A stretch of DNA of 64,000 nt. It comes from Neolewinella aurantiaca (GTDB lineage: Bacteria; Bacteroidota; Bacteroidia; Chitinophagales; Saprospiraceae). The position numbers and the translations under genes were made by a program. Location of the stretch: assembly GCF_008014675.1 (NCBI RefSeq), contig NZ_VOXD01000023.1, positions 1 through 64,000 of the forward strand. Reading direction: 5' to 3'. Below are positions 4,296 to 60,393 of this stretch, one piece after another (position 1 is the first letter of the stretch; the number at the start of each line of letters is the position of its first letter). The notes beneath the pieces were generated by a model. The model was given only the letters and a program-made list of their open reading frames with translations, was not told the DNA's origin and did not search any database.

Positions 4296-4315
4296 TGCAC
4301 CCGCGTGGCAGCGCC
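4296..4315 (-). repeat. Degenerate unit of the GGCGCGG-CGCAGGTGCA repeat
   Basis: TGCACCCGCGTGGCAGCGCC is the reverse complement of a diverged repeat unit, with a two-base insertion and one substitution in the core. It sits in the 291-bp gap (4090-4380) between two minus-strand genes. Nothing else was recognised in that gap apart from the promoter candidate. Confidence 0.4.
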
Positions 4316-4380
4316 CCAAAAAAATCAGGCAGGTATATGTGTAACTGTAATTTCGCATCAGAAAAACAACATTTCATCCT

Positions 4381-5682
4381 CTACATACTGATGCCTAGCC
4401 AGTTCGGGAACAAGACCACTACGATGAGCAAAAAGACCTGAATCACCAGGAAAGGAATAATCCCCTTGTAAAGATGTACGGTTTTCACTTCCGGAGGGGC
4501 AACTCCCTTGAGGTAAAAAAGAGCGAAACCAAAAGGTGGAGAAAGAAAGCTGGTTTGCAGATTAATGCCCAAAAGGATGCCTAACCACACCAAATCTGTA
4601 CCATAACCGATGAAAATCGGCGTCACGACGGGAACAATGATGAAGACAATCTCTATGAAGTCGATGAAAAAACCGGCAACGAAGACTACAATCATTACAA
4701 ACGCCAGAAACTGATACTCCGATAAACCTCCCTGATTTATCAGCCTGACCAGAAACTGGTCTCCGCCCAGTTCCCGGAACACCAGCGAAAAGGTTGTGGC
4801 CCCCAGAAGAATCATGAAGACCATTGCCGTCAGGTGTGTCGTGTCCTGGCAGACGTCCCTGACCGTTGCCCATTTCAGTTTCCCCTGAGTCAGGGTAAGC
4901 AGAACAGCGCCGAAGGCCCCGATGGCAGATGCTTCAGTAGGAGACGCCTTACCTGCGAGGATAGAGCCAAGCACAGCAACAATCAGCAGTAAGGGCAGCA
5001 AAAGGCTTTGCAGCAAATCCTTGAAGAATGCCGGGGTCCAGCCTTTAAGATCATTGTCTCCCCGCGGGAAGAGTTGAGGTTTTAAAATTCCAAGACCTAT
5101 TATATATAGTACATAAGCTCCAACGAGCAATAAACTTGGCCAAAGAGCAGCAGAAAACAGCTTGCCCACCGAAACGCCCAGCACGCTGCCCAGTAACACG
5201 AGCACCACCGACGGAGGTATGATTTGCCCAAGCGTCCCCGAAGCGGCAATCACTCCGGTCGATACCGTAGCTGGATAGCCTCGTTTGAGCATCGGAGGTA
5301 AACTGATGAGCCCCATCGTAATTACCGTTGCACCGACGATCCCTGTACTTGCCGCCAGAAGAGCCCCGACGATGATGACCGAAATCGCCATGCCGCCTCT
5401 GACACGACCGAACAACTCGGTCATCGTTCGTAACATACGCTCCGCGAGGCCGCTTTTTTCCAGCATGATCCCCATAAAGACAAAAAGAGGTACCGCAAGC
5501 AATACAGAATTATCCATCACGCCCATTACCCGGTTCGGCAGCAGCGTCAGCACGACCGGATCAAGGAAACAAAAAGCGTACAGGAGAGACAGGCCTCCGA
5601 GCGTGAATGCAACCGGGTACCCATACAGGACAAGCAGAAAAATACTTACGAAGAGGATAAGGGCAAGAATGGCCAGGCTCAT
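4381..5682 (-). CDS. dctM: TRAP transporter large permease, DctM type
   Basis: This 433-aa, very hydrophobic protein has about 12 predicted membrane segments. It matches the DctM subunit of tripartite ATP-independent periplasmic transporters by full length and by conserved stretches: an early VPLFVFMGIMLEKSG, then GATVITMGLISLPPMLKRGY followed by GVIAASGTLGQIIPPS, and a C-terminal SPPFGFALFYLKGVAP. It would drive Na+-coupled uptake of an organic acid or related solute across the inner membrane. The small subunit lies 84 bp upstream on the same strand. No DctP solute-binding protein gene is next to the pair, so the substrate cannot be inferred. Confidence 0.93.
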   Translation of the reverse strand: MSLAILALILFVSIFLLVLYGYPVAFTLGGLSLLYAFCFLDPVVLTLLPNRVMGVMDNSVLLAVPLFVFMGIMLEKSGLAERMLRTMTELFGRVRGGMAISVIIVGALLAASTGIVGATVITMGLISLPPMLKRGYPATVSTGVIAASGTLGQIIPPSVVLVLLGSVLGVSVGKLFSAALWPSLLLVGAYVLYIIGLGILKPQLFPRGDNDLKGWTPAFFKDLLQSLLLPLLLIVAVLGSILAGKASPTEASAIGAFGAVLLTLTQGKLKWATVRDVCQDTTHLTAMVFMILLGATTFSLVFRELGGDQFLVRLINQGGLSEYQFLAFVMIVVFVAGFFIDFIEIVFIIVPVVTPIFIGYGTDLVWLGILLGINLQTSFLSPPFGFALFYLKGVAPPEVKTVHLYKGIIPFLVIQVFLLIVVVLFPNWLGISM

Positions 5683-5766
5683 AGACGATTGCGTTCGGGA
5701 AGGAGGAAAGAGTCAATGCGTTTAACAGAGGCTCCCGATTCCGGGGGTTAATCAATTACAATAAGC

Positions 5767-6264
5767 TTATTCTTCAGGTGGCTGGCCGGAGTAGGCGCGA
5801 ACGCAGGATGCAATACCCTGCAGAATGAGCAAGGCAGCGGTAAGCGGGATCATTGCTTTAATCGGGAAGAAACTGGTAATACCGTTTGGGTTAGGACTCC
5901 CCTCTCCACTAGCCAGTGCTTCAGCCGCAAAGTTCCAACCCGTAAAAAGCAAAACAATCGCCCAGGGGAGCAAAAACAAAAGGGTGCCGACGAGGTTAAC
6001 AAGCCGCTGGTTGGCAGGGCTGAATTTCTCGTAAAACAAATCGACCCGCACGTGCCGGTCCTGTTGAAGCGTATAGGGAATCCCCAAAAGAAAAATCATC
6101 GCGAAAAGGTGCCAGGAGAGCTCTCCTACCCAAGCCGCAGTCTGGTTAAAAATTGCGCGGAGACTGACGTCGACCACTATCACGAAAATGAGGAGTAGAT
6201 TCAGGTAGCCTGCGGCCTTCCCGATGGTGGCGACAATGGATTCTATCAGAGCTACTGCTTTCAT
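5767..6264 (-). CDS. dctQ: TRAP transporter small permease, DctQ type
   Basis: This 165-aa protein has four predicted membrane segments and the DctQ-type pattern: RAIFNQTAAWVGELSWHLF, then YTLQQDRHVRVDLFYEKFS. It is the small membrane subunit that pairs with DctM and precedes it in one transcription unit. The codons for its last 15 or so residues (QGIASCVRAYSG) contain a copy of the dispersed repeat (5794-5812), read antisense, so the C-terminal tail may have been shaped by that element. The start ATG at 6264 fits the family. The DctP partner must be encoded elsewhere or be absent. Confidence 0.88.
   Translation of the reverse strand: MKAVALIESIVATIGKAAGYLNLLLIFVIVVDVSLRAIFNQTAAWVGELSWHLFAMIFLLGIPYTLQQDRHVRVDLFYEKFSPANQRLVNLVGTLLFLLPWAIVLLFTGWNFAAEALASGEGSPNPNGITSFFPIKAMIPLTAALLILQGIASCVRAYSGQPPEE
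5794..5812 (+). repeat. Dispersed repeat unit inside dctQ
   Basis: GGCGCGAACGCAGGATGCA belongs to the CGCAGGATGCA subtype (one extra A relative to CGCAGGTGCA). The same subtype occurs at 44156 and twice at 60343-60393. It lies in frame within the dctQ coding sequence. Confidence 0.75.
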
Positions 6265-6414
6265 GAAGGCGGAGTATACGTGATCGAGCGGGTGAATTCA
6301 GTTCGTGTCCGCAAACCACAGGCCAACTCATGGGTTAGTGAAGTGTAATGATTGCGTGACCGACTCACAGTCGCCAAAATACCAAATCAGCAACGAATCA
6401 AAGTACCATTTCTC

Positions 6415-7023: not shown

Positions 7024-7072
7024 CTACAGATCGTACAACTACCTGGTTACTTAATCACCTGATTATTTCCCC

Positions 7073-8212: not shown

Positions 8213-8276
8213 AGCAGCAGACTGTTAGTTCGTTAGGCTTTCAGACCTTAGTGCTGGCCCCAAAAAACAACCAACT

Positions 8277-8996
8277 ATGCGTTACACATTCTTGCTCCTG
8301 ATCTTTGCCCTGTTTGCTTCCTGCAACGTATTCAAGTCGGGAAACAGCACCGAAACCGCGGCGATACAGGCTCCACCAACGGGGCTTGAAGGCCCTGCAT
8401 ATGACCCAAGTACAAGTCCGCAACCAGTAAGTATGGCGCCGCCGATGACAACGTCTCCACAGCCGATTCAGGCGGGGACGCAGGTGCAAAGATCCGTTCC
8501 CGCAGGCACGGATCAGCCCCAGGCTTATGGCTCCGTACCAATGAATCCGCAACAAACCGGTAAGGGTACAGATGTTGCTCCTTCAACCTATTCAGCACCT
8601 GCGGCCGCGCAAGCTGCGCCCCAGGCTTATAATTCTACTGCAGCAGCTCCTTCAACGTACGCAGCTCCGGCTCCCAACACAGCGGAAGCAGCTCTGGCTG
8701 AGGTACTTAACGGCGCCTGGGTGAACAGCACCGACTCCGACGAAATAGTGGCTTTCACCCCGGATCACTACCAAACTTACTACCGCGGTGAACTGCTCGT
8801 CGAGGAAGATATGACGTACCACGCTGCCTGCCCCGGCGATTGCAATGGAGGAGAACCTATGGAGATTGCCTGCTTTACCATTTCCGGCCCCGCCGGAACA
8901 GACTGCTATGGCATCATCCGTCTCACTCCCGAAGTATTGGAGTTGAGTTTGCTCGGTATTTCTACCGAGCCTATCGTTTATTATAAGCAGCAATAA
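8277..8996 (+). CDS. Putative lipoprotein with Pro/Ala-rich linker
   Basis: This 239-aa protein begins with a lipoprotein signal (MRYTFLLLIFALFASC, lipid-modified Cys 16). Residues 20-140 form a low-complexity Pro/Ala/Gln/Thr/Tyr linker with recurring APSTY and PQAY motifs. A compact C-terminal domain (about 140-239) has cysteines in YHAACPGDCNGGEP and again in ACF and DCYG, suggesting disulphides. The domain was not recognised. A dispersed repeat unit (8471-8488) lies inside the linker and encodes QAGTQVQ. Function unknown; probably surface- or periplasm-facing. A good terminator follows at 9023-9063. Confidence 0.75.
   Translation: MRYTFLLLIFALFASCNVFKSGNSTETAAIQAPPTGLEGPAYDPSTSPQPVSMAPPMTTSPQPIQAGTQVQRSVPAGTDQPQAYGSVPMNPQQTGKGTDVAPSTYSAPAAAQAAPQAYNSTAAAPSTYAAPAPNTAEAALAEVLNGAWVNSTDSDEIVAFTPDHYQTYYRGELLVEEDMTYHAACPGDCNGGEPMEIACFTISGPAGTDCYGIIRLTPEVLELSLLGISTEPIVYYKQQ
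8471..8488 (+). repeat. Dispersed repeat unit inside the lipoprotein linker
   Basis: GGCGGGGACGCAGGTGCA contains the exact core CGCAGGTGCA and is read in frame as AGTQVQ. Confidence 0.75.
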
Positions 8997-9022
8997 AGCG
9001 TTGTTCCCGAATCTACTACCTG

Positions 9023-12829: not shown

Positions 12830-12924
12830 GAACAACAGAGGTGGAGTTTCCTTCCGTACCAGCCCTGGTGATCCTGATACTTACGACATCAGGGTCGTAG
12901 AAAAGGTCGGTGAAGCTACTCTTG

Positions 12925-13000
12925 CGGGGCCGCAGGTGCCAGGCAGGTTGGAAGAGCAACGGCCCTTAAATAAGCCTTGCCCTGCACCTGCGTGTGCGCC
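12925..13000. repeat. Inverted pair of dispersed repeat units
   Basis: A forward unit (GCGGGGCCGCAGGTGCC, ending 12940) and a reverse unit (TGCACCTGCG at 12983-12992, continuing to GCGCC at 13000) face each other, GC-rich ends outward, around a loop of about 42 nt. It occupies the gap between mnmH and the FG-GAP lipoprotein gene and could fold into a long hairpin. Confidence 0.75.
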
Positions 13001-16214: not shown

Positions 16215-16232
16215 TGCACCTGCGTTCCCGCT
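16215..16232 (-). repeat. Single dispersed repeat unit, intergenic
   Basis: TGCACCTGCGTTCCCGCT, reverse orientation with the exact 10-bp core, lies in the gap after pabC. Confidence 0.65.
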
Positions 16233-19231: not shown

Positions 19232-19249
19232 GGCGCGGACGCAGGTGCA
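19232..19249 (+). repeat. Single dispersed repeat unit, intergenic
   Basis: GGCGCGGACGCAGGTGCA matches the consensus exactly. It lies between the terminator and the convergent alpha/beta hydrolase gene. Confidence 0.75.
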
Positions 19250-21832: not shown

Positions 21833-21866
21833 CCGAGTAAGGTAAGTATGATTTTTAAATTCTTCC

Positions 21867-21976
21867 GGCGCGGTCGCAGGTACACTGAAGGCTTTACGAA
21901 ATGCGGACAATCGATCCCTGCTGTGCCCCTTCGGAGCGCCCTCCTTGAACCGCTCCCCTGCACCTGCGACCGCGCC
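21867..21976. repeat. Inverted pair of dispersed repeat units
   Basis: The forward unit GGCGCGGTCGCAGGTACA (21867-21884) and reverse unit TGCACCTGCGACCGCGCC (21959-21976) are nearly perfect inverted copies around a loop of about 74 nt. The pair lies between the divergently oriented T9SS gene (start 21832) and gldG (start 22107). Confidence 0.82.
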
Positions 21977-26823: not shown

Positions 26824-27417
26824 ATGAAAAAACCAACTCCACTGCTCACCACCACTGCTTATTTCCCTCCGGCTCATTGGCTTACCGGGGCGCGGGACGC
26901 AGGTGCATGGTTGGTTGAAGGGCACGAGAACTACCAGAAAGGCGGCCAACGTAACCGTTGTCTTATCGCCGGCCCAAACGGCACTCAAACTCTGAGTGTT
27001 CCGCTTGAGAAAGGCAAACATAACCGCAAACCAGTCCGGGAAGTCCGCATCAGTTACCGCAATGACTGGTGGCGCGAGCACGAGCAAAGCATCCGTACCG
27101 CCTACGGTCGTTCACCTTTTTACGAGTATTACGCCGAAGAGATATTTGCCGTCCCCCGGAGTCATCCGGAGACGCTATGGGAGCTCAATCAGCAAATCAC
27201 CAGCACCATTGTGCGCCTGTTACAATGGCCGGTCCTTCCGGAAACGACCGAAGACTTCATCTTCCCCGATACTCCGGGATACCAACGCCCCGGGGAATTA
27301 CCCGCCGGGCTCTCCCCCTACCCCCAGGTATTTACCGACCGGCACGGGTACCTGGCCCGGTTATCGGTGCTTGACGCATTGTTCTGCCTCGGCCCGGGGC
27401 TCACCACGAAGGTGTAA
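26824..27417 (+). CDS. WbqC family protein
   Basis: This 197-aa cytoplasmic protein has the WbqC family pattern: TAYFPPAHWL, HENYQKGGQRNRCLIAGPNG and IRTAYGRSPFYEYYAEE. WbqC-like proteins are linked to surface polysaccharide or glycolipid gene clusters, but the exact reaction is not established. A dispersed repeat unit is read in frame at residues about 22-28 (GARDAGAW) without changing the spacing between conserved blocks, so it is a substitution within the family frame rather than an added segment. Confidence 0.85.
   Translation: MKKPTPLLTTTAYFPPAHWLTGARDAGAWLVEGHENYQKGGQRNRCLIAGPNGTQTLSVPLEKGKHNRKPVREVRISYRNDWWREHEQSIRTAYGRSPFYEYYAEEIFAVPRSHPETLWELNQQITSTIVRLLQWPVLPETTEDFIFPDTPGYQRPGELPAGLSPYPQVFTDRHGYLARLSVLDALFCLGPGLTTKV
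26889..26907 (+). repeat. Dispersed repeat unit inside the WbqC gene
   Basis: GGCGCGGGACGCAGGTGCA has the exact core plus one extra G in the spacer, followed by TGGTTGGTT as in the extended consensus. Confidence 0.75.
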
Positions 27418-32265: not shown

Positions 32266-32283
32266 GGCGCGGCCGCGGGTGCA
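32266..32283 (+). repeat. Dispersed repeat unit in the 419-bp gap 32151-32569
   Basis: GGCGCGGCCGCGGGTGCA differs by one base in the core. A fragment CGCAGGTG also occurs at 32401, and an imperfect inverted repeat around AGCGCT (32443-32456 with 32523-32534) lies nearby. No gene was recognised in this gap. Confidence 0.65.
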
Positions 32284-32569: not shown

Positions 32570-35500
32570 CTAGCGCAGCAGCACGAAGTCTCCCAATTTG
32601 CGCATTACCGTACCGTCTACCAGCTCCAGTTCCAGTTCCCAGATGAAAACCTGAGGATTCATCAGCCGGCCATCGAGCCGGCCATCCCAACCAAAGTTGT
32701 CGGTCTCCCGCAGGGGGTCGGTGTTGAGGTCGTACATCAACTCTCCCCACCGGTCGTAGACCTTGAAATTCAACAAACCCTGCACCTGCGATCCCGCATA
32801 AGGCCGAAACAGTTCGTTGCTCGTATCTCCATTGGGGCTGAAGGCCGTTGGTACGTAAACGTCTACCTGGCCATCGACCGTAATGACTACGAAGTCCGTT
32901 GCCGAGCACCCTTCTTCATCGAGAATCTGCAACCGGTAAGTCTGAGACTCCAACGGGCTCACACGGATGAAACTATCATTCGTAGTTGGGGGCAGCGGAC
33001 CGCTGCTGGTCCAGAGCAAGGTGTCCCAGTTCTGGAACGTAGTGATAAAACTGAGGTCGATACTGTCGCCAAGATTGATGGTGGTGTCTTCCCTCAGATT
33101 CACTTCAGGGTCAGGGCCCATCAGCACCTCGAATGTTTCCAGAAATGAGCAGCCATCGGCACCTATAACTTCTAACGTATAACTCCCTACGGGCAAGCCT
33201 TCGTAATTGGTTCGTTCCGTAAGCAGTCCACTGTCCAGCCGGTACCGGAAAGGTCCGGTTCCGTTCTGAACCCCGGTAATTTCAACCGCTCCGTCCCGGT
33301 CCTGTTCGCAGGCGGGCTGGTCTACCTCCAGCGAGAGTCCTGCTATCTGAACCGCCTCCCGCTGCAACTCTATGCTGTCCAGGGTTTCACAACCGTTCAC
33401 TTCATCGGTGACTTTAAGGTAGTAATACCCCGGCTCCCGGCCTCTGACCAGATAAGGATCATTGGTTGTGATGATGTCACCAGCTTCGCTGGTCCAGACA
33501 GGATCGAACCGCGGTCCGTTGCTGCTTCCCCGGCCATCAATTGCAGCCTGCACCCGGTCACAATTCAACACCTCCGGCTCCCGCAGGATCACAACCGGCT
33601 CCGCAAAATCAGACCCGACCAGAGTAAAGGTCGTATCCTGGCAACCGTTGCCCAGGTCTACTGTAATCAGGGTATATTCTCCATCGGCGAAGATGACCTG
33701 TTCGGTTTCTCTGCCCAATAAACTATCCGCCGCGTTGAACCATCGGTAGCGATAATTGATTGCCAACGAGGCCGGGTTTAATTCCAACGCGAAACTGTCG
33801 CGCAGGCAGGTAAACTCAAGCGGAGGCTCGATAACGGGCGACGGAACGGTAAAGTCTTCACTGACAACTGCCACCAAAGTATCGCGGCAGCCGTTGCGCT
33901 GCTGAGTCACGACCAGTTGATAAGGCCCCGAAACAGTTACGGGCAGATCATCAGGTCTCGTCTGGGGTTCGAGTGTAAGGTCGCCCGGCCCTGTCCACTG
34001 GAAATCGACCGTACTTACAGCCTGATTTGTCCGGCCATCCAGTAATACTTCCTCGCGGTTACAATCGAGTCGGGTGCCCAGAGGGGCAGACACCGTAGCC
34101 ACGGGAGCGATGGTGTCTGCAGTAACGAGGAGAATGTCGGCGCCGGTACAGCCGCTTACAGGATCGGTAACGGTGAGCAGGTAGCGCCCCGTAGCGGCCA
34201 CCACGGGCGTTTGGTTGAACGTGCCGGATACGATCCGGCCATCCATTGTGGTCCATTCGTAAGTGCTCAGCCCGCTGATGGTTGTTCCCTCGCCAAAGAG
34301 TTCTACCTGGCTGCGCGAGCAGGTCAGCGTCGTATCGTTACCAGCGGTAACGATGGGTGCTGACACGTCGCGGAAGATGATAACACTGTCGGTAGCTGAG
34401 CAGGAGTTTCCGGGATCCGTTACGGTAAACAGGTAGGTATCCGGTTGGAAGATCGTTGCTACCATCGAATCGGCATTGCCGATAAAAAAGCCCGTCCTCG
34501 ACATCCATTCAACCTGAGGCTCGCGGCCGTTTACAAGGTCTGCTTCTCCGGTTACAAGCAAAGAATCCAGTTCGCAGAAAAAAGTATCCGCAGCGCTGAT
34601 GGTCAACGTGGGCACATCGAGGTCTGCGGTCACGTCAACCGTAAAGTCGTTTTCACAGCCGTTCAGCGTATCCTGAATGTAGAAGCGGAATGTTCCGCTC
34701 CCGGTAACTTCCAGGATTCCTGGCCCTACTTCGGGTAGGGATTCGTTGCCGGTAGCAAGCACTTCTTCCCAACCGTAGTTGATGTTTGGCCGGGTGATGT
34801 CCTCGCCGTAAAGCAACAGTGTATCCCGGGCGCAATTGACGCTTGTGTCGGGATACGGAATTACCACCGGTAGCGCTTCGTCTACTTCTACCCGGACATC
34901 AGCAACCGAGCGGCATCCATTCACGGTATCCATTACCATAAGCTGGTAATCTCCGCCACACCGGACGATGGGATTGAGTACGTTTGTCCCCTCCAGGCAC
35001 GCAACGGAAGGGCCACCGCTCCAGCGGTAAACGTACCGGTTGCCGAGGCTGGAGTTGATGCCATCCAGCACCCTGCGCTTATTGTCGCAGTCCAGCAATC
35101 TTTCGGGTCCGGCATCAGCGATTGGGACAATGGTATCGTAGCGTACCATAACGCTATCGATCACCACGCACGAGCTGAGGGTGTTCGTGGTCTCAAGCTG
35201 GTACAAGCCTCCGATCGAGACCCGTAAGCTGTCGCGGTCAGCTCCCACCAGTGTATTCCCGTTGGGGCCGATCCAGCGGTAGGTAAAAGGGAAGGGAGGC
35301 TCGGGAGCAGGTTCCCAAAGCAGGACATCGGTGATTTTACAACTAAGTTCCTGGTCGGGGCCGGCGTTGTCGGCTGGTACCTGTCGGCTGTCCGTTACGG
35401 TTGCCGTCGCCCGGCCCTGCAGGCCAAACTGATTGATCACCACGATGGTGTAGTCTCCGGTTTCAGTTACGGGCAGGCGCGTTTCTGTTTCCCCGGGCAC

Positions 35501-38500
35501 AACCGATTCGTTGCGGCGCCAGGTGTAGGTACACCCCTGGCATGGGTCCCGGAAAGTGGCTTCTAAAAACACGGTGTCCTGAACACAGCTCAGGCTCGTA
35601 TCCCTCAGACGAGGAAAGGGCGGACAGGGCAAGCGCGTGGCCTCCACCGAATCAGTCACACTGCAACCGTTACCTGTATTGGTTACCTCTACATTGTATA
35701 CGCCCTGGTGTCCGATCCTGACGGTATCGTAGTCTGCATCCGCCACCAGAGCGGGACCCATCCACGCGAAGGTGTAATCACCGGGAATGTCCGGAATAAC
35801 GGCGAGCTTGAAGTCCGTCGTATCGCAGGGGATAACGGCTGAAGTAAAGTCTAAACCAGGAACTGTCAAGTCGTTGACTATCCGAACATTACTCACACTG
35901 GAGCAACCGGTTTCACGCTGGGTAACGCGTAGCAGATAAATCCCACCACTGGTTACCTCGGCGGTAATCGATTGGCTGAGGGTATCATCGGCCGTATTGG
36001 TCCAGACATAGTCGAACAGCGGGCCGGAAGAGCTGCCCGCTCCGTCCAGGGTTACACTCGGGAAATAACAACTTACCGTATCGCGGTCTCCGGCTTCGGA
36101 TACAGGACTGATCAGGTTCCGCGTCACCTCTACGAATGCGGTATCGGTTTGACCAGAGACGAGATTATTCACCACAAAAGCGTATTGCCCCGGGGTAAAT
36201 ACCGTGAGTTCCCGATCGGTAGCTCCGGGCTGAGTTGTTGCTCCTGCGGGGATGATCCATTCCGTCATCACATTCGGCCCGGGCACCGGGAATGATACAG
36301 TGGCATCCAGTTCGACCAACGATCTTGCACAAGTGATACTATCGGGTGGAACGACGATGGCCAGCGCGGGGCAATCGGCGGAGACAACAATGCGGGCAGT
36401 ATCGAGGCAACTTTCGTTGAAATTACCCAGCACAAGCGTGTACTCTCCGGGCAGGCTGACGGTCGGTCGCATCCCGACCAGGCCGACGGGTTCCCCGTCC
36501 CGAAACCAGCGCACGACCGGAGCATCGGTACCTGCGCTTCGGTCGAGGCGGGTGAGCCCCGTCTCGCAGTCCAGAAAGGCAGAGTCCGGCAAGAGAGCGA
36601 CCACGCTGTTGTCGGCGAGTTCAATCGTGACCGAATCCCGCGTCTGGCACCCTGTTTCCAGGTTGACGACCGAGTAATAGTAGGTTCCCGGACAGTAAGC
36701 CCACGTCAAATTGGTGTCCCGGGCCGGAGAGAGACAGGGCCCGGACCAATTTTGCAGGTTATCGTAACTCAGGTTAGTGGCCCTTGCGTCCAGGGCCACC
36801 GAATCGACGAAGCAGTCGAAGTCGAGCGGCAGCTCGATCCGGATACGCGGTGTATCGAGACGGGAGAGCACCCTTGTCCGGTCGGTTGATACACATCCGT
36901 TGTCGGTGTCCGTCACTGTGAATTCAAAATAACCACCGGGGTCTTCTACGAAAAAGCTGACCAGGCGGCCCAGGGTGTCATTCGGTTCGCTGAGGCGAAC
37001 CCAACTGTAGCGCATTTCCGGTCCGATGCTGGAGGAGCCTCCTCCCAGCAGGAATTCGTTGTTATAGCAGTTTATTTCGAGGGTGTCCGGGCCCGCTGCG
37101 GCCACCGGCCGCAGTGTATCGGCGGGCGCAATTATCGTTCGCGTTGCTGCGCAACGACTGATGGTATCCACCGCCGTAAGGGTATAGCTTCCCGCCCGGG
37201 TGGCCACGTACGTACTGGCCGTTCCGATCGTATCCGCGGCATTCTCATAGGTCCAGTAAAATTCCTGGCCGTTAGCGGAGGAGCTGCCAGAAGCATCGAG
37301 CAGTCGTTCCGGGAAATAACACGACAGGGGCGCGGTCGCAGGTGCAAGGGAGAGGTTGGAAGGAGAAATATCCTGAACCACGGTAAACATTGTATCGTTG
37401 CTGCAACCGCTACGGCGGTTCGTAACCGTCAGCGTATAGGTTCCCGGGCAATCGGTCACAAACACCGGACCGGAAGCTTCGCCCGGTAAGCATCCGCCCG
37501 ACCAACGGTAATCCAGGAAGCTATTGTTCGGTTGCAGCGTATCACCCACCAGGGTAATTTCGGTCGTTTCGCAGTTGAGCAATTCGTTACCGCCGAAGAA
37601 GGTTACTGGTGTCAGGGTGTCGATTCCCATTGCGAAGAAGGTATCCAGCCGGCAACCGGAAAAGGCGTTCTCGATGGTGAGGTTGTACACGCCCGGGGCA
37701 TCGACGGTGATTCCGGGCCCATCGGCTGCGCCGATGATGTTACCGCCGGCCGGGCTAACCCAGGTGTAGTCATACAGCGGCCCCAGCGAATCCGGCGTAG
37801 CAAGGATGCCCGGTGTCGGGTTCCGGCAGGAGATGAAGTTACACGGCTCGTTCAATCCGTCGCATTGCACCTGCGTCAGCGCCAGTTCTGCCTCTACCTC
37901 GAAACGAAAGTCTTCCACCAGGATGCTGTCTTTAACCGTACACCCCACCCCGCGGGTCTGATTGGACAACTCGTAGAAGTACAACCCGGCGGTATCTGCG
38001 GTGAAACTGCGTAGAAAACTCAGGTCGTTGCCTTCCACATCCGTCCATACTCCCCGGTTCAGGTATTCAAAAGTGCTCTGCGAGGCATCCATCAAAAGCG
38101 TCGGGCTGTCACAGGTAAGGCCAGGGCCAACCGGTTGAAAAACGATTTCAGGGTTGAGCACTACGAGGTCGAGCATCACCGTAGAATCGCAGCCGTTGGC
38201 TGCGGGTATGGTGCGGGTGTAGTTGCCCGTTGTGGTAAAAGCCTCCGCTCCGATCATAAAAGCGTCGCCTGCGCAAACGGCAGCCAAGGTATCCTTTTCG
38301 ATGGGCGGAGCAACGCTCAGGTTTAGTGTAACCACGCTGTCACACCCCAGAAACGAAGGGATCGTGTCGATGTAAGTTCCCGGAGAGTTGTAAACGTTGC
38401 TCCCCTGAACGTACACGGCTTCGGCGCAAATAGTCGTGTCTTTGGTTTCGAACAGGGTTTCGACGATCTCAAGGTCAAGTACGACAACGCTGTCGCAACC

Positions 38501-41212: not shown

Positions 41213-41310
41213 GGCGGGGCCGCAGGTGCCGGGTAAAAGGATGAGAAGCAGAGCTTTTATAAGAGGCAAAAATGGCTCTTCCAACCTTTTCTGCACCTGC
41301 GTTGAGCGCC
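41213..41310. repeat. Inverted pair of dispersed repeat units
   Basis: A forward unit GGCGGGGCCGCAGGTGCC (41213-41230) and reverse unit TGCACCTGCGTTGAGCGCC (41292-41310) flank a loop of about 61 nt. The arms continue into partly complementary AAAAGG and CCTTTT. Confidence 0.78.
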
Positions 41311-44147: not shown

Positions 44148-44497
44148 GGCGCGGGCGCAGGATGCAAACAAGGTTTCTCGAACAGGGTACTGATCAGATT
44201 ATCGCTCAACCCCCACCCCAACCCGTGAGCTTCGCTGCTGCCTTCGGCGGTCCCACGGGGGATGGGCTAGTGAAAACGCTACGCGTTTTGGGTTGCAAGC
44301 TCTTAGGCGGTGACTATGATCTCGAGCTAAAAGCTTAAAATCGAATCCTATGCGTCAGCCCTGCCCCTCCCGGCCTCCCCACACCGCTGCGCTGGGGAGG
44401 AGCAATCTCGACAATCTGGTTTGCGCCCTTCTGAACAGGGTACTGATCAAGTGTAAAAACCGTGCCGTTCAACCAAGCCTGTACCTGCGATTGCGCC
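44148..44497. repeat. Expanded inverted repeat pair with a 253-bp insertion-like segment
   Basis: A forward unit GGCGCGGGCGCAGGATGCA (44148-44166) and reverse unit TGTACCTGCGATTGCGCC (44480-44497) are far apart for a pair. Between them GAACAGGGTACTGATCA occurs twice (44180-44196 and 44433-44449). Removing one copy plus the 236 bp between them would leave a loop of about 60 nt, as in the other pairs. The gap 43977-44685 contains no recognisable gene. Confidence 0.7.
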
Positions 44498-49002: not shown

Positions 49003-51078
49003 ATGAAAAACAATTATATCCACAAATGCGCATTCGCGCTGCTGGGGATGCTGATGAGCGTATCGCTCTTCGCCTCCAGCCACCGGGAAGCCCCCCTCAT
49101 TGCGGACGATCCCGTTGCCGACAACGTTGACGTCTACGCCTTTCGTAGCCCCGATGATCCTGGCACCGTAACCCTGATCGCGACTTATATTCCCGGTCAG
49201 TTGCCTCACGGCGGCCCCAACTATTACCACTTCGGAGAAGATATCCGTTACGAGATCCACATCGACAACGACGTCTCCACCCCGGGAGATGATGTTCTTT
49301 ACCGCTTCACCTTTACCAGAACGAACGAAGATCCAAGCACCTTCTTCAACATTCGTTTGGGTAAGGAAAACCTGAAGACGACTTACCGTCTCGAACGCAT
49401 TACCAACGGCGGCAACAACGTCGATGTAATCGTAGAGAATGGTGTTGTCCCTGCTCCGAACATCGGCCCGCGCTCCATCGAAAGTGAAGTCGGTTTGAAT
49501 CAGGACAGCTACGAAGCATACTCCAACAGCGCAATTACCACCGCGACTACGGGAGAAACCGTGTTCGCCGGCCCTGTAGACGATCCTTTCTTCGTTGATC
49601 TGGGAGGCATCTTCGACCTCGGCGATGCGCCACGTCAGGATGGTGACCCGATCGACGGGTTGGCTTGCTTCAATACCAGCGCCCTGGTACTGAAAGTTCC
49701 AATTCAGGCACTGCTGCCAGGCGAGGCTAACTTCCCGGCAGAGAGCATTCTTGACCCTACCCACGTAATCGGAGTTTGGGCTTCTTCCAGTCGCCCGGCC
49801 ATTCGCACCCTGCAAACTGATGGTTCCAAGCCTGCCGTAGACGGCGACTTTGTGCAGGTATCTCGCTTGGGTATGCCGCTCACCAACGAAGCTGTCATAC
49901 CGATTGGGATGAAGGATTACTGGAATGCTATTACGCCATACGACGAACTGGCCGACACCTTACTGGACCGCTACTTCTACAACCCAGAGCTTGCGCTCTA
50001 TATGGACGACGATCAGTTTGGTGGTGCCGTACCGGCATTTGCCCCACTGCGCGTGCAGACAGCAAGCCCGACGGCGGTTGGCGACATTGACTTCTCCAAC
50101 GGAGCTGATGGCCTCTTCGCCCTTACCGACCCTGCGTTTGAAGACCTCATTGCAGGCTCCGCATTTGACGCAGCGGTTGGCTTCCAGTCGCTTCTTCTTC
50201 CTGGCCCGGGCAAGCCCCGTTCCGTAGACCTTTGGCCGATCTTCCACACGGGTGCTCCTAACCTCGCTCCGTACCAACTGGCTACCGGCAAAACTGCTGG
50301 CAATCCGTTTACCGCTGGTAAACCTTTCATCCACAACTTCCTGCCCAACGGCGGCGATATGTTGCGCTTGAATATGGCCGTTCCCCCTACCCCACGTGAC
50401 GATCCTAATTTCTCCAGCCTCGGTCTGGTACAAGCGGCGGCCATCGGTTTGACCGTAGCACCGTTCAATACCACCACCGACCTGGAAATGATCCCTAATA
50501 TGGACGGTTTCCCCAACGGCCGTCGTCTTGAAGACGACGTGACCCGGATCGAGCTGCAGGCAGTTGCGGGGGTAGTACTTGCTGCCGTCGGCCTGTTCTA
50601 CGACGACTACGATTTGGAGAACGGTGGCAGCCCGGTTACCCCCGGCCTTACCAACGTACTCGGTTACACCACCGGTGTTGAAGCCAACGACAAACCGTTC
50701 CGCAGCGACTTCCCTTACCTGGCCCTTCCGGCAAGTGGCAAAGGAGAATGTTCCGGTGCGATATCTACCGTTTCCAACGATTTTTTCGAAACCGGCATGG
50801 GAGCAAGTGCGCCTAACGTGGTGGGCGTAAACTTCCCCAACCCGTTCCAGTCTCAGACTACGATCAAGCTCCGGGTTCGTGAAACAACCGCTGTTTCCAT
50901 TGAGATGTACGACATCAACGGTCGGATGCTGAAACAACTTGCCCGGGAAAGCTTCCCGGCTGGTGAGCACCTCATCCCCGTCAATGTTTCCGGTGTACCG
51001 CAGGGCACCTACCTGGCTGTGGTGAAGAGTGGTTCGGGTCGAATTCTTCAGACAATCCGAATGATCAAATCCAACTAG
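49003..51078 (+). CDS. DUF4331 protein, paralogue 2, with T9SS type A sorting domain
   Basis: This 691-aa protein has a signal peptide followed by the DUF4331 region (SHREAPLIADDPVADNVDVYAF ... NDKPFRSDFPY). About 120 extra C-terminal residues end in a T9SS type A (Por-like) sorting domain: GVNFPNPFQSQTTIKLRV, VSIEMYDINGRMLKQL, GTYLAVVKSG. It should therefore cross the outer membrane. It arose by tandem duplication with the preceding gene. The operon-like order receptor, DUF4331, DUF4331, TPR lipoprotein suggests a shared envelope function, possibly in binding or processing a compound imported by the receptor. Confidence 0.9.
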   Translation: MKNNYIHKCAFALLGMLMSVSLFASSHREAPLIADDPVADNVDVYAFRSPDDPGTVTLIATYIPGQLPHGGPNYYHFGEDIRYEIHIDNDVSTPGDDVLYRFTFTRTNEDPSTFFNIRLGKENLKTTYRLERITNGGNNVDVIVENGVVPAPNIGPRSIESEVGLNQDSYEAYSNSAITTATTGETVFAGPVDDPFFVDLGGIFDLGDAPRQDGDPIDGLACFNTSALVLKVPIQALLPGEANFPAESILDPTHVIGVWASSSRPAIRTLQTDGSKPAVDGDFVQVSRLGMPLTNEAVIPIGMKDYWNAITPYDELADTLLDRYFYNPELALYMDDDQFGGAVPAFAPLRVQTASPTAVGDIDFSNGADGLFALTDPAFEDLIAGSAFDAAVGFQSLLLPGPGKPRSVDLWPIFHTGAPNLAPYQLATGKTAGNPFTAGKPFIHNFLPNGGDMLRLNMAVPPTPRDDPNFSSLGLVQAAAIGLTVAPFNTTTDLEMIPNMDGFPNGRRLEDDVTRIELQAVAGVVLAAVGLFYDDYDLENGGSPVTPGLTNVLGYTTGVEANDKPFRSDFPYLALPASGKGECSGAISTVSNDFFETGMGASAPNVVGVNFPNPFQSQTTIKLRVRETTAVSIEMYDINGRMLKQLARESFPAGEHLIPVNVSGVPQGTYLAVVKSGSGRILQTIRMIKSN

Positions 51079-53383: not shown

Positions 53384-55828
53384 TTATTCCTCTTCGGCAA
53401 ATCGGTTCCGGCCCGAGCGGTCGACAAGAGTAGAACTGGCCTGCTGCGTTCCCTGAATGACCATATCAAGGATGTTGACGTGAGCTGGCTGGGTGATCAT
53501 AAATTCGATAGCCCGGGCTACATCAGGGGAACGGAGAGGTTGAAAATCCTCATAGATTTTGGCCCGTTCCGCATCGCCGTCGTAGCGCACTACGGAGAAC
53601 TCAGTTTCTTCCACCATCGCAGGACAAATCTGACCTACCCTGATGCCGTGTTTAACCAGATCGATACGCATCGCCCGGGTGAGGGCATCGACGGCGTGTT
53701 TGGTGGCGCAATAAACGTTTCCGTTGGGATAGACTTCCTTGCCCGCCGTACTGCACACATTGATGATCATTCCGGAGCGGCGTTCCACCATTACCGGGCT
53801 GATGGCCCGGGTGAGGTACAGTAATCCCTTCAGGTTTACGTCGATCATCTCGTCCCAATGATCAAGTTGCCCCTCATGAATCGGGTCTACGCCCTTGGCC
53901 TTGCCGGCGTTATTGACGAGCACATCGATGTTTTGCCACGCTCCGGCAAGGCGGGCCGGCAGGCTGCTCACAGCTTCCCGGTCGGTAACGTCAAGCGGAA
54001 TCAGTAGCGTTTCCGTTTGGTGTGCGTTGAGGAGTTCTTCCCCTAGTTCTTCGAGCCGCTCGTTGCGGCGGCCGATCAGGATCAGACGAAAGCCCTCGAC
54101 AGCCAGGCACCTTGCGGTGGCCCTGCCGATACCACTGGTTGCGCCCGTGATTAGAACGGTTTTGCCGGCTCCTTTAGGTGGCGCGGGCGCAGGTGCAGGG
54201 GTGGGTTCAGGAACCCGGTCCCGTTCGGCGATCATTGCTTCCAGGGAAGCGATGTTTTGTTTCAGGGCCGCGAGCGCATCTTCTTCAGCCGGGGTTGCAG
54301 CAGTAACCAGCGAAATAGCCGCAAATGCTTTGCGGTTAGCAGCCGTGTTGAATGCCGAATTGATGGCCGTAGCGGTTTTAAAAGCAATTCTCGCCCCCTC
54401 GTACTCTCCGCGCTGGTGCAACAAAACTGCGAGCTCGTACTGCGCGTAGGCGTGAGAAGGGTCGATCGCCAGGCCCTTGCGCAGCACCTTGATGGCTTTC
54501 CCCTGCCGGCCCACCGGGCCGGCGAGCAGGAGCGCGTAGCGATAGAATGCATCGGGGTTGGGCTCTTTGTCTTTTGTGGCGCGACGCAGGTAGGCTGCGG
54601 CTTCGAGGAAGTCTTCGGCGAAGTGATCCGCCAGCAGAATACCCAGGCGGTAGTTCAGGTCGGGGTAAAAGGGCTCGATGTCTGAGAGTTGCTCCCAGTT
54701 TTCGCGGGCGCTCTGGTAGTCTCCCGCACTGAGGTAAAGCTCTCCGTTGAGGTAAAGCGCATCCGGATGATCAGGGTGTTTGGCCAGCAACGCTTCAGTT
54801 TCGCGGCGGGCAGCCGCTGCGTCTTCGGTGGAAGTGGCCAACAGGAGAGCGTAGTGGTAATGCAGCTTGTGATGATCGGGCAGGGCGTCACGCCCTGCAT
54901 TGAGCAGTTCGAGCGCTGAGGTGGCGTCACCTTCGTCGTGCATACTCCAGGCGCGCTCTATCCAGATGTTGGCCTGCTCGGCAGGCGACATCTCCTGAGC
55001 GGAAGCATCCGTTCCTTCCTGCTTTGCGGGCTCGCCGGTAATGCCGGAGGTTATTTCCGGTGCTTCAGCATCTAAGTTGTCGGAGGTCATGGGGTAGTTG
55101 GTTTGGGGCTGATCTGTAGGTTCGGGGATGTCCGCTTCGTCATCCTCACTTTGCACCTGCGGTTGCGCCTCATCATCCTGCCCGGCCATGCCCAGCATTT
55201 CCAGCCCGGGAATACCCGAGAGGTCCATCGGAGCTGCGTTTTCAAAGTCTTTCAATTCTTCCCACAACTTTGGTCGTTCCGCGAAGATGAAGAGCTGGTG
55301 GTAATGATCGGCTGCAAACTGAGCTTCGGTAAGGGCCCAGCCATCTTTGATCTGGCGCAGCAGTTCTTCCATCTGAACGCTGGTTTCCCTGATTTTGCGT
55401 TTGTACTTTACGAAAGCTTCGCCTCCTCCGAGGTCGTCGTCCGGCTTACGGAGTTTGATATAGCGGTCTTCCCAGTAATTAACGTAGTACATCAGTTCCT
55501 GCTGACTGGCCAGGCTCGTCTGGGTGGAAATAACTTCGTCCTGCAGTTCATCGTAGGCATGAGAACGGATGAAGACGGGCAAAACTTCACGGTCGGAGCC
55601 AAAAATCTCCTGTCCCCTCAACATGCAGTTCGAGTTGGTCAGGAAATCACTGGAGATAAGGACCACCACCGGCCCCTCGGTATCTTTCAACAAATCGGCC
55701 AGGACCGGGCCTTCGTTGGACTTGCCGACACTTACATGGACGAAACTGACATGACTAGCCAGATCCGCCGCAATTCGGTGAGCAGTTGTCTGGTTATCGG
55801 TAACGTAAGCGAGGGTGATGGTAAGCAT
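53384..55828 (-). CDS. TIR-like / TPR / short-chain dehydrogenase fusion protein
   Basis: This 814-aa cytoplasmic protein joins three modules. Residues 1-150: a TIR-like domain (LTITLAYVTDNQTTAHRIAA, VVVLISSDFLTNSNC) plus a helical extension. Residues about 270-500: TPR repeats (ALYLNGELYLSAGDYQSARENWE, HAYAQYELAVLLHQRGEY). Residues about 555-800: a classical SDR with TGATSGIGRATA, NNAG, active-site Ser in CSTAGK and YCATK, most like the YdfG-type 3-hydroxy acid dehydrogenases. The linkers are Glu/Asp/Pro-rich and Pro/Ala-rich, and each contains one dispersed repeat unit. Start: ATG 55828, because the frame upstream begins with TTG at 55837 inside the promoter box. The function of the fusion is unknown. 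Confidence 0.85.
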   Translation of the reverse strand: MLTITLAYVTDNQTTAHRIAADLASHVSFVHVSVGKSNEGPVLADLLKDTEGPVVVLISSDFLTNSNCMLRGQEIFGSDREVLPVFIRSHAYDELQDEVISTQTSLASQQELMYYVNYWEDRYIKLRKPDDDLGGGEAFVKYKRKIRETSVQMEELLRQIKDGWALTEAQFAADHYHQLFIFAERPKLWEELKDFENAAPMDLSGIPGLEMLGMAGQDDEAQPQVQSEDDEADIPEPTDQPQTNYPMTSDNLDAEAPEITSGITGEPAKQEGTDASAQEMSPAEQANIWIERAWSMHDEGDATSALELLNAGRDALPDHHKLHYHYALLLATSTEDAAAARRETEALLAKHPDHPDALYLNGELYLSAGDYQSARENWEQLSDIEPFYPDLNYRLGILLADHFAEDFLEAAAYLRRATKDKEPNPDAFYRYALLLAGPVGRQGKAIKVLRKGLAIDPSHAYAQYELAVLLHQRGEYEGARIAFKTATAINSAFNTAANRKAFAAISLVTAATPAEEDALAALKQNIASLEAMIAERDRVPEPTPAPAPAPPKGAGKTVLITGATSGIGRATARCLAVEGFRLILIGRRNERLEELGEELLNAHQTETLLIPLDVTDREAVSSLPARLAGAWQNIDVLVNNAGKAKGVDPIHEGQLDHWDEMIDVNLKGLLYLTRAISPVMVERRSGMIINVCSTAGKEVYPNGNVYCATKHAVDALTRAMRIDLVKHGIRVGQICPAMVEETEFSVVRYDGDAERAKIYEDFQPLRSPDVARAIEFMITQPAHVNILDMVIQGTQQASSTLVDRSGRNRFAEEE
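54180..54197 (+). repeat. Dispersed repeat unit in the linker before the SDR domain
   Basis: GGCGCGGGCGCAGGTGCA, exact consensus, is read on the coding strand as TPAPAPAP. It is followed by GGGGTGGGTT, as in the extended consensus. Confidence 0.78.
55152..55169 (-). repeat. Dispersed repeat unit in the linker after the TIR-like domain
   Basis: TGCACCTGCGGTTGCGCC, exact core in reverse orientation, is read as EAQPQVQ in the acidic linker. Confidence 0.75.
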
Positions 55829-55833
55829 GGGGC

Positions 55834-57402: not shown

Positions 57403-57464
57403 ACTCACCCGGAGGCGAGCTTCAGTCACTTCCATGTAGTGTTTCTCTCTCCTCCCAAAACAGT

Positions 57465-57514
57465 ATTCAGCGTTCAGGCCGAGCAATAACCCGCCGCCTG
57501 AACGCTGAATGTTT
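57465..57514 (+). terminator. Hairpin after the LVIVD lipoprotein gene
   Basis: A perfect 15-bp stem (ATTCAGCGTTCAGGC at 57465-57479 with GCCTGAACGCTGAAT at 57496-57510) is followed by GTTT. Confidence 0.7.
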
Positions 57515-57540
57515 AACTTGCCAGTCGAACTCAATTCTGT

Positions 57541-58359: not shown

Positions 58360-58427
58360 CCTCGTAACGCTGGCACTGGCCAGCAATTTCATTAGCTCAC
58401 TCCGAAGTCTACAATAACCATTCCGAT

Positions 58428-58979
58428 TTGCTTTTCCCCGACGAAAAATCACTGGTAACAGCCTGTCTGGCCGGAGACCGCAGGGCCCAGGAGGCTTTTT
58501 ACCGGCGGTTCGCGCCGGCAGCCCTGGTCGTTTGCCGCCGGTACGCAAACGGCCGGGACGAAGCAATGGAACTTCTCAACGGAGGGATGATGAAGGTCTT
58601 TCAGAAACTCGACAAATTCCGTTGGGAAGGAAGCCTCGAAGGCTGGGTGAAGCGCCTTGTATTCCGAAGCACCATCGATCAGTTCCGGGCGGGCAAACAA
58701 CGGCCAACGTTGGAGATTGCTGACTGGGACACCCCTTCGGAGGCCACCGTCACTCAGTCGCTCTACGCCGAGGACCTCTGCCGGATCATTGATCTCCTGC
58801 CTGAAACGAGCAAAGAAGTTTTCTGGCTCTTTGCCGTAGAGGGCTATAACCATGCCGAGATCGCCAACCAACTAAATTTCAGTGAAGGCAATAGCCGCTG
58901 GCACCTGAACAAAGCACGACAAATTTTGCGCAAGAAACTGCAATCTCAATCATTTAAACCCAACCGCTATGCAGGCTAA
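58428..58979 (+). CDS. ECF-type RNA polymerase sigma factor
   Basis: The 183-aa protein has sigma region 2 (AQEAFYRRFAPAALVVCRRY ... MMKVFQKLDKFRWEG, then WVKRLVFRSTIDQFR) and region 4 with its helix-turn-helix (LLPETSKEVFWLFAVEGYNH ... EIANQLNFSEGNSRWHLNKARQ). Initiation appears to be TTG at 58428, because no ATG precedes region 2. The last 11 bases overlap the start of the next gene, so the two are translationally coupled, as is usual for a sigma factor and its regulator. Confidence 0.9.
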   Translation: MLFPDEKSLVTACLAGDRRAQEAFYRRFAPAALVVCRRYANGRDEAMELLNGGMMKVFQKLDKFRWEGSLEGWVKRLVFRSTIDQFRAGKQRPTLEIADWDTPSEATVTQSLYAEDLCRIIDLLPETSKEVFWLFAVEGYNHAEIANQLNFSEGNSRWHLNKARQILRKKLQSQSFKPNRYAG

Positions 58980-60294
58980 AAAGGAACAGCAATGGACCGA
59001 CGACGCCGCCTTCTGGGATGAAGCGTGGGCGGACATGAACGGACGGCTCGACGCCGCGCCGCCCTCACGCGAACGCAGCTTCGTCTGGTGGCCCTTCTTC
59101 CTCGTCTTTTCTGCAGCAATTGCGCTTGCGGTTTACTTGGCGGCCTTCCCTAGCGATGATCAGGATCAGCCGCTTAGCCCCACAACCAACACAGGGCCGG
59201 AGGTTGTGAATACCGATGGAGAAAATACCGTCGCAACAAAGCCCCTCAAGAAAACAATCGTCCGCAATGAGGAATTGAAGGAAAGAAGTTCAGAGGCAAG
59301 TATGAAGCCAGGTGAAAGCCAGGCCCTTGCCAGTTCGTCTTCGCCGGATCGCCCGGTCTTTTCAGCGCCTGAGCCCGCTGCGGCTTCCGCCCCGTCTTCG
59401 CCGGATGTTCTCCCTCAGCCAGGCCAGCCGGAAACCTTAAGGCTCCCTGCCACACGGGTAGCCTCCACCACCGAAACTGCGAACGGCGACAAGCCCGCAC
59501 CACCGAATAGCAATGACGTGCAGGAGCAACGCAAGCCCATCGCGGCAAGCCCCGCTCTCCCTTCATCCGGGATGGTAGTGGAGCCAACCAAACAGGATCA
59601 AAAAGCATTGCTGCCCTTCAAAAGCGAACCGCATCGTTACCGTAATCCGCTGACATTTGCCATCGCCGGCACCACTGGTCTGAACCCAGTACCACCTGGT
59701 ATTTCATTAGGGTTTGGTTACCGCATTAAGAACGGCGGAAGGGTTTCTTTTCCCCTCTCCGTACGGTACCGTTTCGATGAGATTGAGGTTAAGGACTCCC
59801 CCCTCAATGCACTTCTTGAGAGTGATTTATCGGTAGGAAGCCCGGTGAACGGAAGTTCTGATTTATTGCTGATTCCAGAGACGATCAGTTCGCATGCGCT
59901 GGAAATCAGCGCCGGAGCCGCCTGGGAGGCCACCCCACGCCTGCGATTCGTTTCTGGTCTTGCAGCGGCTTACCACATGGAGAGCTTTATCAACTTCGCG
60001 GGAAATACCAATTCATCCTTCAACGGCCAGTTGGTCTCGTTCGAAAATTATGATGTTTACAGCCTGAATTCATCCCGCAGTGCTGACCTGTTGGAATCCC
60101 TGACGCAAGACGGCGTAGCACCCGATTTCAGCCGGTGGGCCTTTCGGGCCCACCTTGGCGTAGCTTACGACCTTACGCCCCGGTTCGGGGCGCAACTGAA
60201 GCTGACCCGGCTGATCGCACAACCCGACCGTACAGGAATCATTCAACTGCAGAACAACCAGCTTGAATTCGGGGTGAGCTACCGGTTCAGGTAG
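58969..60294 (+). CDS. Membrane-anchored protein with Pro-rich linker and outer-membrane barrel domain, sigma partner
   Basis: The 441-aa protein begins with a short cytoplasmic part containing WTDDAAFWDEAWADMNGRLDA (about 40 aa), then one membrane helix (WWPFFLVFSAAIALAVYLAA, residues about 44-63). Next is a long Pro/Ser/Ala/Thr-rich linker (about 65-215) and a C-terminal region of about 220 aa of outer-membrane-barrel character (LGFGYRIKNGG, LEISAGAAWEA, LEFGVSYRFR). The start overlaps the sigma gene by 11 nt. The short N-terminus facing the sigma factor could act as an anti-sigma part, and the linker could span the periplasm. This is inferred from context; no experiment is known to me. Confidence 0.75.
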   Translation: MQAKKEQQWTDDAAFWDEAWADMNGRLDAAPPSRERSFVWWPFFLVFSAAIALAVYLAAFPSDDQDQPLSPTTNTGPEVVNTDGENTVATKPLKKTIVRNEELKERSSEASMKPGESQALASSSSPDRPVFSAPEPAAASAPSSPDVLPQPGQPETLRLPATRVASTTETANGDKPAPPNSNDVQEQRKPIAASPALPSSGMVVEPTKQDQKALLPFKSEPHRYRNPLTFAIAGTTGLNPVPPGISLGFGYRIKNGGRVSFPLSVRYRFDEIEVKDSPLNALLESDLSVGSPVNGSSDLLLIPETISSHALEISAGAAWEATPRLRFVSGLAAAYHMESFINFAGNTNSSFNGQLVSFENYDVYSLNSSRSADLLESLTQDGVAPDFSRWAFRAHLGVAYDLTPRFGAQLKLTRLIAQPDRTGIIQLQNNQLEFGVSYRFR

Positions 60295-60342
60295 TCAGGT
60301 AAACCGGTTTACCGGCACTGAGCCAAGCCGTTCAACCACCCC

Positions 60343-60393
60343 TGCATCCTGCGTTCGCGCCGCCTTCTTATTCGGGCGCGTACGCAGGATGCA
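60343..60393. repeat. Inverted pair of dispersed repeat units, head-to-head
   Basis: TGCATCCTGCGTTCGCGCC (reverse) and GGCGCGTACGCAGGATGCA (forward) are close inverted copies with GC-rich ends facing inward and a loop of about 12 nt. This polarity is opposite to the other pairs. It lies between the barrel gene and the GH26 gene. Confidence 0.8.

Follow-up and report, generated by a model that had tools for sequence, protein, structure and literature searches.

The window analyzed in this study is a stretch of 64,000 nt from Neolewinella aurantiaca (contig NZ_VOXD01000023.1, 1-64,000), whose genome of 6.0 Mb is called G000 below. A short repeat built on the 10-mer CGCAGGTGCA is dispersed over its genes and gaps. 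The exact 10-mer was found 12 times in the window, whereas shuffled sequences gave a mean of 0.12 and a maximum of 2 (100 shuffles). Thus, the dispersed repeat is real, as the initial annotation had stated on the basis of 12 copies against 0.12 expected. When GGCGCGGNCGCAGGTGCA was searched with up to three mismatches, 16 sites were detected (0.29 expected). A weight matrix gave 18 sites above 14 bits, nine on each strand, and four additional units with the +1 variant CGCAGGATGCA brought the total to 22 units.

The initial annotation had listed 21 positions, of which 20 match the sequence; 12925 is better placed at 12923. The unit given at 26889 is present, but it has one extra spacer base and its 18-mer frame begins at 26890. 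The unit at 8594-8611 (minus strand) had been missed, and position 4296, where the interval was said to start, has merely a weak match, CGCGGGTGCA. The 22 units are listed below. Genes here and in the following sections were called by our own hexamer-based caller.

5794..5812, plus strand: unit of the +1 variant, GGCGCGAACGCAGGATGCA, inside the called gene 5767-6264 (minus strand)
8471..8488, plus strand: unit GGCGGGGACGCAGGTGCA, intergenic, convergent with 8594, 35.6 bits
8594..8611, minus strand: unit TGCGCGGCCGCAGGTGCT, near the 5' end of the called gene 8541-8996 (plus strand), 24.6 bits
12923..12940, plus strand: unit, intergenic, convergent with 12983
12983..13000, minus strand: unit, intergenic, convergent with 12923
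16215..16232, minus strand: unit, intergenic
19232..19249, plus strand: unit with the exact 18-mer consensus, intergenic
21867..21884, plus strand: unit at the 5' end of the called gene 20243-21910 (minus strand), convergent with 21959
21959..21976, minus strand: unit with the exact 18-mer consensus, intergenic
26890..26907, plus strand: unit inside the called gene 26824-27417 (plus strand); the G006 orthologue is gapless with no trace of the motif
32266..32283, plus strand: unit, intergenic
32781..32798, minus strand: unit inside the 2331-aa gene 32570-39565 (minus strand); the G008 orthologue reads CGCAGGTTCA, gapless
37329..37346, plus strand: unit inside the 2331-aa gene 32570-39565 (minus strand); G008 agrees with it at 28/28 bases, with flanks 78% identical
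37866..37883, minus strand: unit inside the 2331-aa gene 32570-39565 (minus strand)
41213..41230, plus strand: unit, intergenic, convergent with 41292
41292..41309, minus strand: unit, intergenic, convergent with 41213
44148..44166, plus strand: unit of the +1 variant, intergenic
44480..44497, minus strand: unit, intergenic
54180..54197, plus strand: unit inside the gene 53384-55828 (minus strand), aligned in seven relatives
55152..55169, minus strand: unit inside the gene 53384-55828 (minus strand)
60343..60361, minus strand: unit of the +1 variant, divergent with 60375; both units carry CGCAGGATGCA
60375..60393, plus strand: unit of the +1 variant, divergent with 60343

Abundance, Structure and Placement of the Motif

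Over the 6.0-Mb genome, CGCAGGTGCA was detected 581 times in the forward and 553 times in the reverse direction (1,134 copies), against 2 and 0 in the reversed control. This whole-genome search, which the initial annotation had proposed, shows that the core does not occur at chance frequency. For the analyses of sites we used a 464-kb sample, consisting of the window and two 200-kb stretches of the same genome. Sites above 14 bits numbered 140 in the sample and 0 in the reversed sequence, which corresponds to about one site per 3.3 kb. The spacing of clusters was slightly more even than random (coefficient of variation 0.75 against 0.90; 2.1% of 2,000 simulations were as even).

The species consensus spans about 28 bp and reads GGCGCGGn CGCAGGTGCA AAGnnnGGTT. 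In the 93 exact sites, a weakly T-rich region at -15 to -11 is followed by GGCGCGGn at -8 to -1, CGCAGGTGCA at 0 to 9 and AAG at 10 to 12. Downstream of these, weaker preferences were observed (G at 16, G/T at 17 and T at 18-19), and a purine-rich tail fades by +30. The downstream continuation NGGNNGGTT described in the initial annotation therefore exists, but it is weaker than the core (G at +12, G at +16, G/T at +17, T at +18/+19). The motif is not palindromic. No shared hairpin was found among 23 folded stretches, whose energies were computed with no shuffle control, and the folds of the units were heterogeneous.

About 86% of the sample is taken up by called genes; these contain 67 of the 140 sites, and the other 73 lie in the remaining 14% or so. 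In genes, the exact core is used in five of the six frames, and the frame encoding Arg-Arg-Cys is empty (0 of 44). Some of the in-gene copies translate as APA/AGA-rich linkers, as would be expected if the repeat were an artefact of codon or amino-acid bias. We give this explanation next to no chance. The 73 non-genic copies and the contrast between 140 sites and 0 in the reversed control refute it, and the exact 17-mer described below is missing from 39 genomes of other genera. Codon bias alone, which the initial annotation had named as the outcome that would undo its repeat, does not account for the copies.

The copies are oriented at gene ends in G000. At 5' ends, 17 copies were in reverse complement and three in the same orientation as the gene; at 3' ends, four were in the same orientation and none in the opposite one. 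With another threshold (400 kb), the 5' ends gave 16 opposite and four same. The opposite-to-same ratios at 5' ends elsewhere were 6:1 in G017, 3:1 in G007 and 2:1 in G001. Many of the 5' copies encode signal-peptide-like segments ending in C-T-C-x-x-A-Q. In addition, 12 of the 15 neighbor pairs closer than 250 bp in G000 are convergent.

These features could point to a regulatory or structural RNA element, such as a terminator, a promoter element or a block coding for signal peptides. The convergent pairs could fold, and the 17 reversed copies fall within 100 nt of the start of called genes, where several encode signal-peptide-like N-termini (L-C-T-C-x-x-A-Q). However, the sites occur in both orientations and in every type of gap (25 divergent, 39 tandem and eight convergent), and 43 of the 139 sites classified by gene context are in gene interiors (one of the 140 lacked a neighbor gene). 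Most copies have no close partner, since only 15 pairs exist among 140 sites, and no Rfam match was detected in the window at the gathering thresholds. An RNA element is thus highly improbable. The signal-peptide block was rejected as a general explanation, as it explains only some of the reversed 5'-end copies.

Copies in Genes Change by Substitution

Orthologous DNA of relatives was aligned to the window and to one 20-kb stretch. Only high-scoring segment pairs (HSPs) longer than 300 bp were considered, and these had to extend 40 columns beyond the site in both directions; loci of the same genome were merged. Nine genic sites of G000 were compared with one to seven genomes each, and 21 of the 23 comparisons were gapless over the 28-bp site. 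The same test, with sites of the relatives as the starting point, gave 20 gapless comparisons out of 23. The mean identity was 0.84 in the sites and 0.73 in the flanks, and the site exceeded its flank in seven of the nine cases. The site at 54180 was aligned in seven species: six alignments are gapless with substitutions only, and G017 has a 3-base gap. Since an insertion at which an HSP stops would escape this test, the gapless result speaks for the genic copies alone. We conclude that the genic copies turn over by substitution and not by insertion. The comparison of orthologous loci suggested in the initial annotation was thereby achieved for the genic copies, but it gave 0 non-coding comparisons.

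This result bears on an origin by insertion, as a repetitive extragenic palindromic (REP) sequence, a bacterial interspersed mosaic element (BIME) or a miniature transposable element. REP/BIME elements are dispersed, present in many copies and paired in places, like the Neolewinella motif. An extended consensus of about 28-35 bp, the convergent pairs and the enrichment in gaps also agree with such an origin. In contrast to REP/BIME elements, about half of the Neolewinella copies are genic, there is no insertion footprint in genes, and the units share no hairpin. For the genic copies, an origin as a transposon or REP was rejected by the gapless alignments with substitutions only. A miniature inverted-repeat transposable element would have a conserved interior, whereas none was found between paired copies (39-221 bp apart), and conservation fades at about +30. 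Both possibilities raised in the initial annotation, a REP/BIME mobilized by a transposase and a miniature transposon with terminal repeats, are contradicted for the genic copies by these alignments, by the share of copies in genes and by the lineage-specific versions described in the next section. Overall, spread by insertion is very unlikely.

Distribution and Lineage Versions

The search of related genomes proposed in the initial annotation was performed with the exact 17-mer GCGCGGNCGCAGGTGCA. It was detected in 20 of the 21 Neolewinella genomes, with 2 to 581 copies each. All 39 genomes from other genera in the same family or order lacked it; in those genomes, the count covered this exact 17-mer. 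Among 52 stretches of named records carrying a 26-mer version, 48 bear the label Lewinella or Neolewinella, three "Bacteroidia bacterium" and one "Saprospiraceae bacterium"; N. persica, N. agarilytica and N. lacunae are among the species with the motif.

The counts of the exact core differ between congeners by as much as two orders of magnitude, and other versions of the motif replace or accompany it. G011 has 1,344 copies of CAAAGTAGCA (control 16) and 11 of CGCAGGTGCA (control 11), and CAAAGTAGCA does not exceed 12 copies in any of the other 20 genomes of the genus. G001 has 510 copies of CGGAGCGCAGG (control 1) and 28 of CGCAGGTGCA (control 15). Its sister G007 has 210 of CGGAGCGCAGG (control 0) together with 123 of CGCAGGTGCA, and G015 has 120 and 364, respectively. 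CGCAGGAGCA reaches its peak in G017, with 219 copies (control 14) beside 213 of CGCAGGTGCA; the sister genome G004 has 114 (control 21) and 61.

In a tree of the ComEC protein, G001 and G007 are sisters (support 100/100), as are G004 and G017 (99/99), and the sisters share their versions. The CGCAGGTGCA-rich genomes G000, G002, G003, G005, G006, G008, G010 and G018 form one clade. This tree represents one gene, and G011 and the outgroup are on long branches with unsure placement.

Six matrices were each trained on one half of the loci and evaluated on the half left out. The held-out hits (control hits in parentheses) were 63 and 64 (1 and 1) for G000, 19 and 12 (0 and 0) for G017, 11 and 12 (0 and 0) for G001, 29 and 26 (0 and 0) for G011, and 10 and 9 (1 and 1) for G007. 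Thus, the tests support five of the six sampled matrices. The matrices were then compared with one short gap allowed. All ten pairs among the five matrices other than that of G011 were similar (0 of 400 column shuffles), and the G011 matrix resembled those of G000, G017 and G004, a likeness equaled by 1, 0 and 1 of 400 shuffles, respectively. For G017 and G004, the matrix seeds had been picked from G000-like matches, which favored the likeness of these two matrices to that of G000. By eye, G011 and G000 have in common GGC followed by C..AG..GCAA.G, with a two-base offset.

In this genus, the signal thus exists in no fewer than three clear versions, with a fourth that is mixed. According to the counts in 21 genomes, the matrices and the one-gene ComEC tree, the versions follow phylogeny, with the exception of G012.

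A Putative DNA Uptake Sequence

What was observed is the abundance of the motif, its presence on both strands, its turnover by substitution in genes, its lineage versions and the presence of genes for ComEC, a helix-hairpin-helix (HhH) protein and DprA. Taken together, these features suggest that the motif probably serves the marine genus Neolewinella as a genome-wide sequence for DNA uptake (self-recognition). The initial annotation had merely named an uptake- or recombination-type signal; the evidence points to the uptake type, but a recombination site stays a rival.

In the own genome, an open reading frame of 715 aa encodes ComEC, a frame of 474 aa has two HhH matches, and DprA has 407 aa. 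In the proposed mechanism, a DNA receptor at the surface or in the periplasm would bind the motif of about 28 bp on free double-stranded DNA and favor its import, and ComEC, the HhH protein and DprA would pass the imported DNA on to recombination. Since tagged fragments would be imported and recombined more often, chance near-matches would drift to the consensus at any genic or intergenic place that can tolerate the change (gaps, linkers and signal peptides). If the receptor changed in a lineage, the set of copies would follow, and dialects would result. The receptor, the uptake bias and the drive are elements that we infer. The selected sites carry 29.7 bits of information, and by our own arithmetic about 12.6 bits are needed to mark one site per about 3 kb. 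An excess of this kind is more readily explained by biased uptake and drive than by selection acting site by site.

The main rival is a binding site of a chromosome-associated protein (a nucleoid organizer, a condensin loader or a recombination hotspot/Chi-like factor), whose specificity would drift between species. The long graded footprint, the dispersal throughout the genome sample, both genic and intergenic, and the conservation above the flanks would suit such a site, and the dialects could mirror coevolution with the DNA-binding protein. Oriented recombination or segregation signals show strand bias, whereas each of the two 200-kb stretches has 30 sites on the plus and 31 on the minus strand. 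Also at odds with this rival are the strongly differing copy counts among congeners and the motif information, which is far above what site-by-site selection for findability needs. We consider a chromosomal protein site rather unlikely.

Several results weigh against an uptake sequence. ComEC was found in 56 of 60 genomes and HHH_3 in 21 of 22, including relatives without the exact motif; thus, these genes are not diagnostic and do not prove uptake. No receptor was identified, type IV pili not having been searched for, and no uptake or transformation experiment on the genus was found among the papers listed by our literature search. The intergenic copies, half of all, yielded no alignable non-coding comparison. 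With about 0.3 sites per kb, the motif is less dense than the DNA uptake sequences (DUS) of Neisseriaceae are reported to be. The versions are not all exclusive, since G017 and G007 each mix two, and G012, with 518 copies of CGCAGGTGCA, is not part of the CGCAGGTGCA-rich clade in the ComEC tree. The G004 matrix was weak on held-out loci (4 and 3 hits; control 2 and 0), and the G011 matrix showed no measurable similarity to the G001 and G007 matrices (80 and 37 of 400 shuffles as similar). G011 also lacks the 5'-end bias (none opposite, three same), and its close pairs are mainly divergent (7 of 11); G001, G007 and G017 have no close pairs. Moreover, 18 contig stretches in IMG/VR carry the motif. 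These stretches were chosen for carrying it; additional sites occur in them at 0.10 per kb, compared with 0.18 per kb in the 52 named genome loci.

As for the receptor, the neighbor of comEC (locus L213, 10212-14192) encodes a protein of 1326 aa with a CarboxypepD_reg domain and a type IX secretion system (T9SS) tail below the cut-off. A relative with 33% identity adjoins comEC in G011, and the 20 kb surrounding comEC in G001 yielded none. This protein may be a candidate receptor, but it is only a lead.

Other Repeats, Other Genera and Viral Contigs

Between the window units at 44148 and 44480 sits a small mobile element (44180-44449), a stretch of about 236 bp between the 17-nt direct repeats GAACAGGGTACTGATCA (44180-44196 and 44433-44449). 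Its part 44208-44372 is found in at least 13 further places of the own genome with 88-99% identity, and the element had no match in the plasmid collection. The genes at 47049-48830 and 49003-51078 are adjacent paralogs, 73-79% identical in blocks.

Another 10-mer, CTCCCGACTC, is in strong excess with its shifts in G000 C28 1-80000 (L011-L014), where it occurs 16 times against 0.1 expected, counted regardless of clustering. In G005, a short stretch (L018, 5807-5935) is repeated at many places and represents another dispersed repeat.

Other genera were scanned for k-mer excess in nine of ten sampled genomes (13-40 kb each; G024 was excluded as too short) and more widely in 60-120 kb from five genera (G021, G023, G025, G033 and G038). 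When the frequent k-mers of G021, G023, G025, G033 and G034 were inspected in context, they showed no comparable extended consensus or were gene-family repeats. This method is insensitive, because the G017 version also escaped it in 80 kb, and signals may thus exist in other genera. In G023 C1 (L219-L222), an AT-rich dispersed repeat around CTTAAACTTA was present at 6 places in 103 kb (0.2 expected).

Several of the IMG/VR contigs (L262, L263, L255, L257, L265 and others) have equal spacing of their sites, and thus they are perhaps related viruses, proviruses or host fragments.

Comparison with Known Systems

To our knowledge, there are only two bacterial families, both proteobacterial, in which self-specific DNA uptake is established to depend on a genomic tag. 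The comparisons below are limited to portions of the cited papers.

In Neisseriaceae, the dialects of DUS include wadDUS, which has a one-base insertion, and the genome of S. muelleri holds two dialects (PMC3630211). DUS are conserved above permissive surroundings, and recent copies face orthologues with many mismatches (PMC2397512). The Neolewinella motif is like DUS in its thousand-plus copies, its lineage dialects and its conservation above the flanks; the mixture in G017 compares with the two dialects of S. muelleri, and the unit at 26890 with recent DUS copies. It differs from DUS in its footprint (about 28 bp against 10-13), its lower density and its phylum. By eye there is no sequence relation.

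The uptake signal sequences (USS) of Pasteurellaceae occur as reverse complement at 5' gene ends and directly at 3' ends in most genomes tested (PMC2346458), which resembles the gene-end orientation bias of G000; the bias fails in G011. Both signals have a strong core with a weaker extended flank (PMC2346458, PMC12616744), and the dialects, two in USS, follow phylogeny. The USS cores, AAGTGCGGT and ACAAGCGGT, are different, and so is the phylum.

Within Bacteroidota, transformation of Riemerella needs ComEC, an HhH protein and DprA, and the proteins of its outer-membrane step do not resemble the well-known machinery (PMC8459023; natural transformation of Riemerella is also treated in PMC8383284). 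Riemerella columbina prefers its own DNA, and the possible DUS/USS k-mers proposed for it are of low complexity, such as AAAAATAAAA with 301 copies against 56 expected (PMC7965970). Members of the ComEC, HhH and DprA families are likewise present in the own genome. Unlike the Neolewinella motif, the tags proposed for Riemerella are of low complexity, and no dialect family is shown in these portions. No uptake sequence of the present kind was found described in Bacteroidota among the papers listed by our literature search, outside of which lay many subscription papers and preprints; the k-mer table of R. columbina is the nearest.

The abundance, the presence on both strands and in genes and gaps, the turnover by substitution and the dialects are hallmarks of DUS and USS. 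We propose a third, unrelated signal of this type in Bacteroidota. In its wider form, the proposal holds that the uptake sequence evolved independently and is the first in Bacteroidota, that its dialects are species barriers, and that its receptor is not of the Neisseria or Pasteurellaceae pilins and is possibly exported by the T9SS or located in the outer membrane; for this wider form, we judge the chances to be evenly balanced. Since receptor and dialect would be expected to coevolve, the 21 genomes could serve as a natural experiment to find the receptor. If the proposal is true, uptake signals and their species barriers would arise repeatedly.

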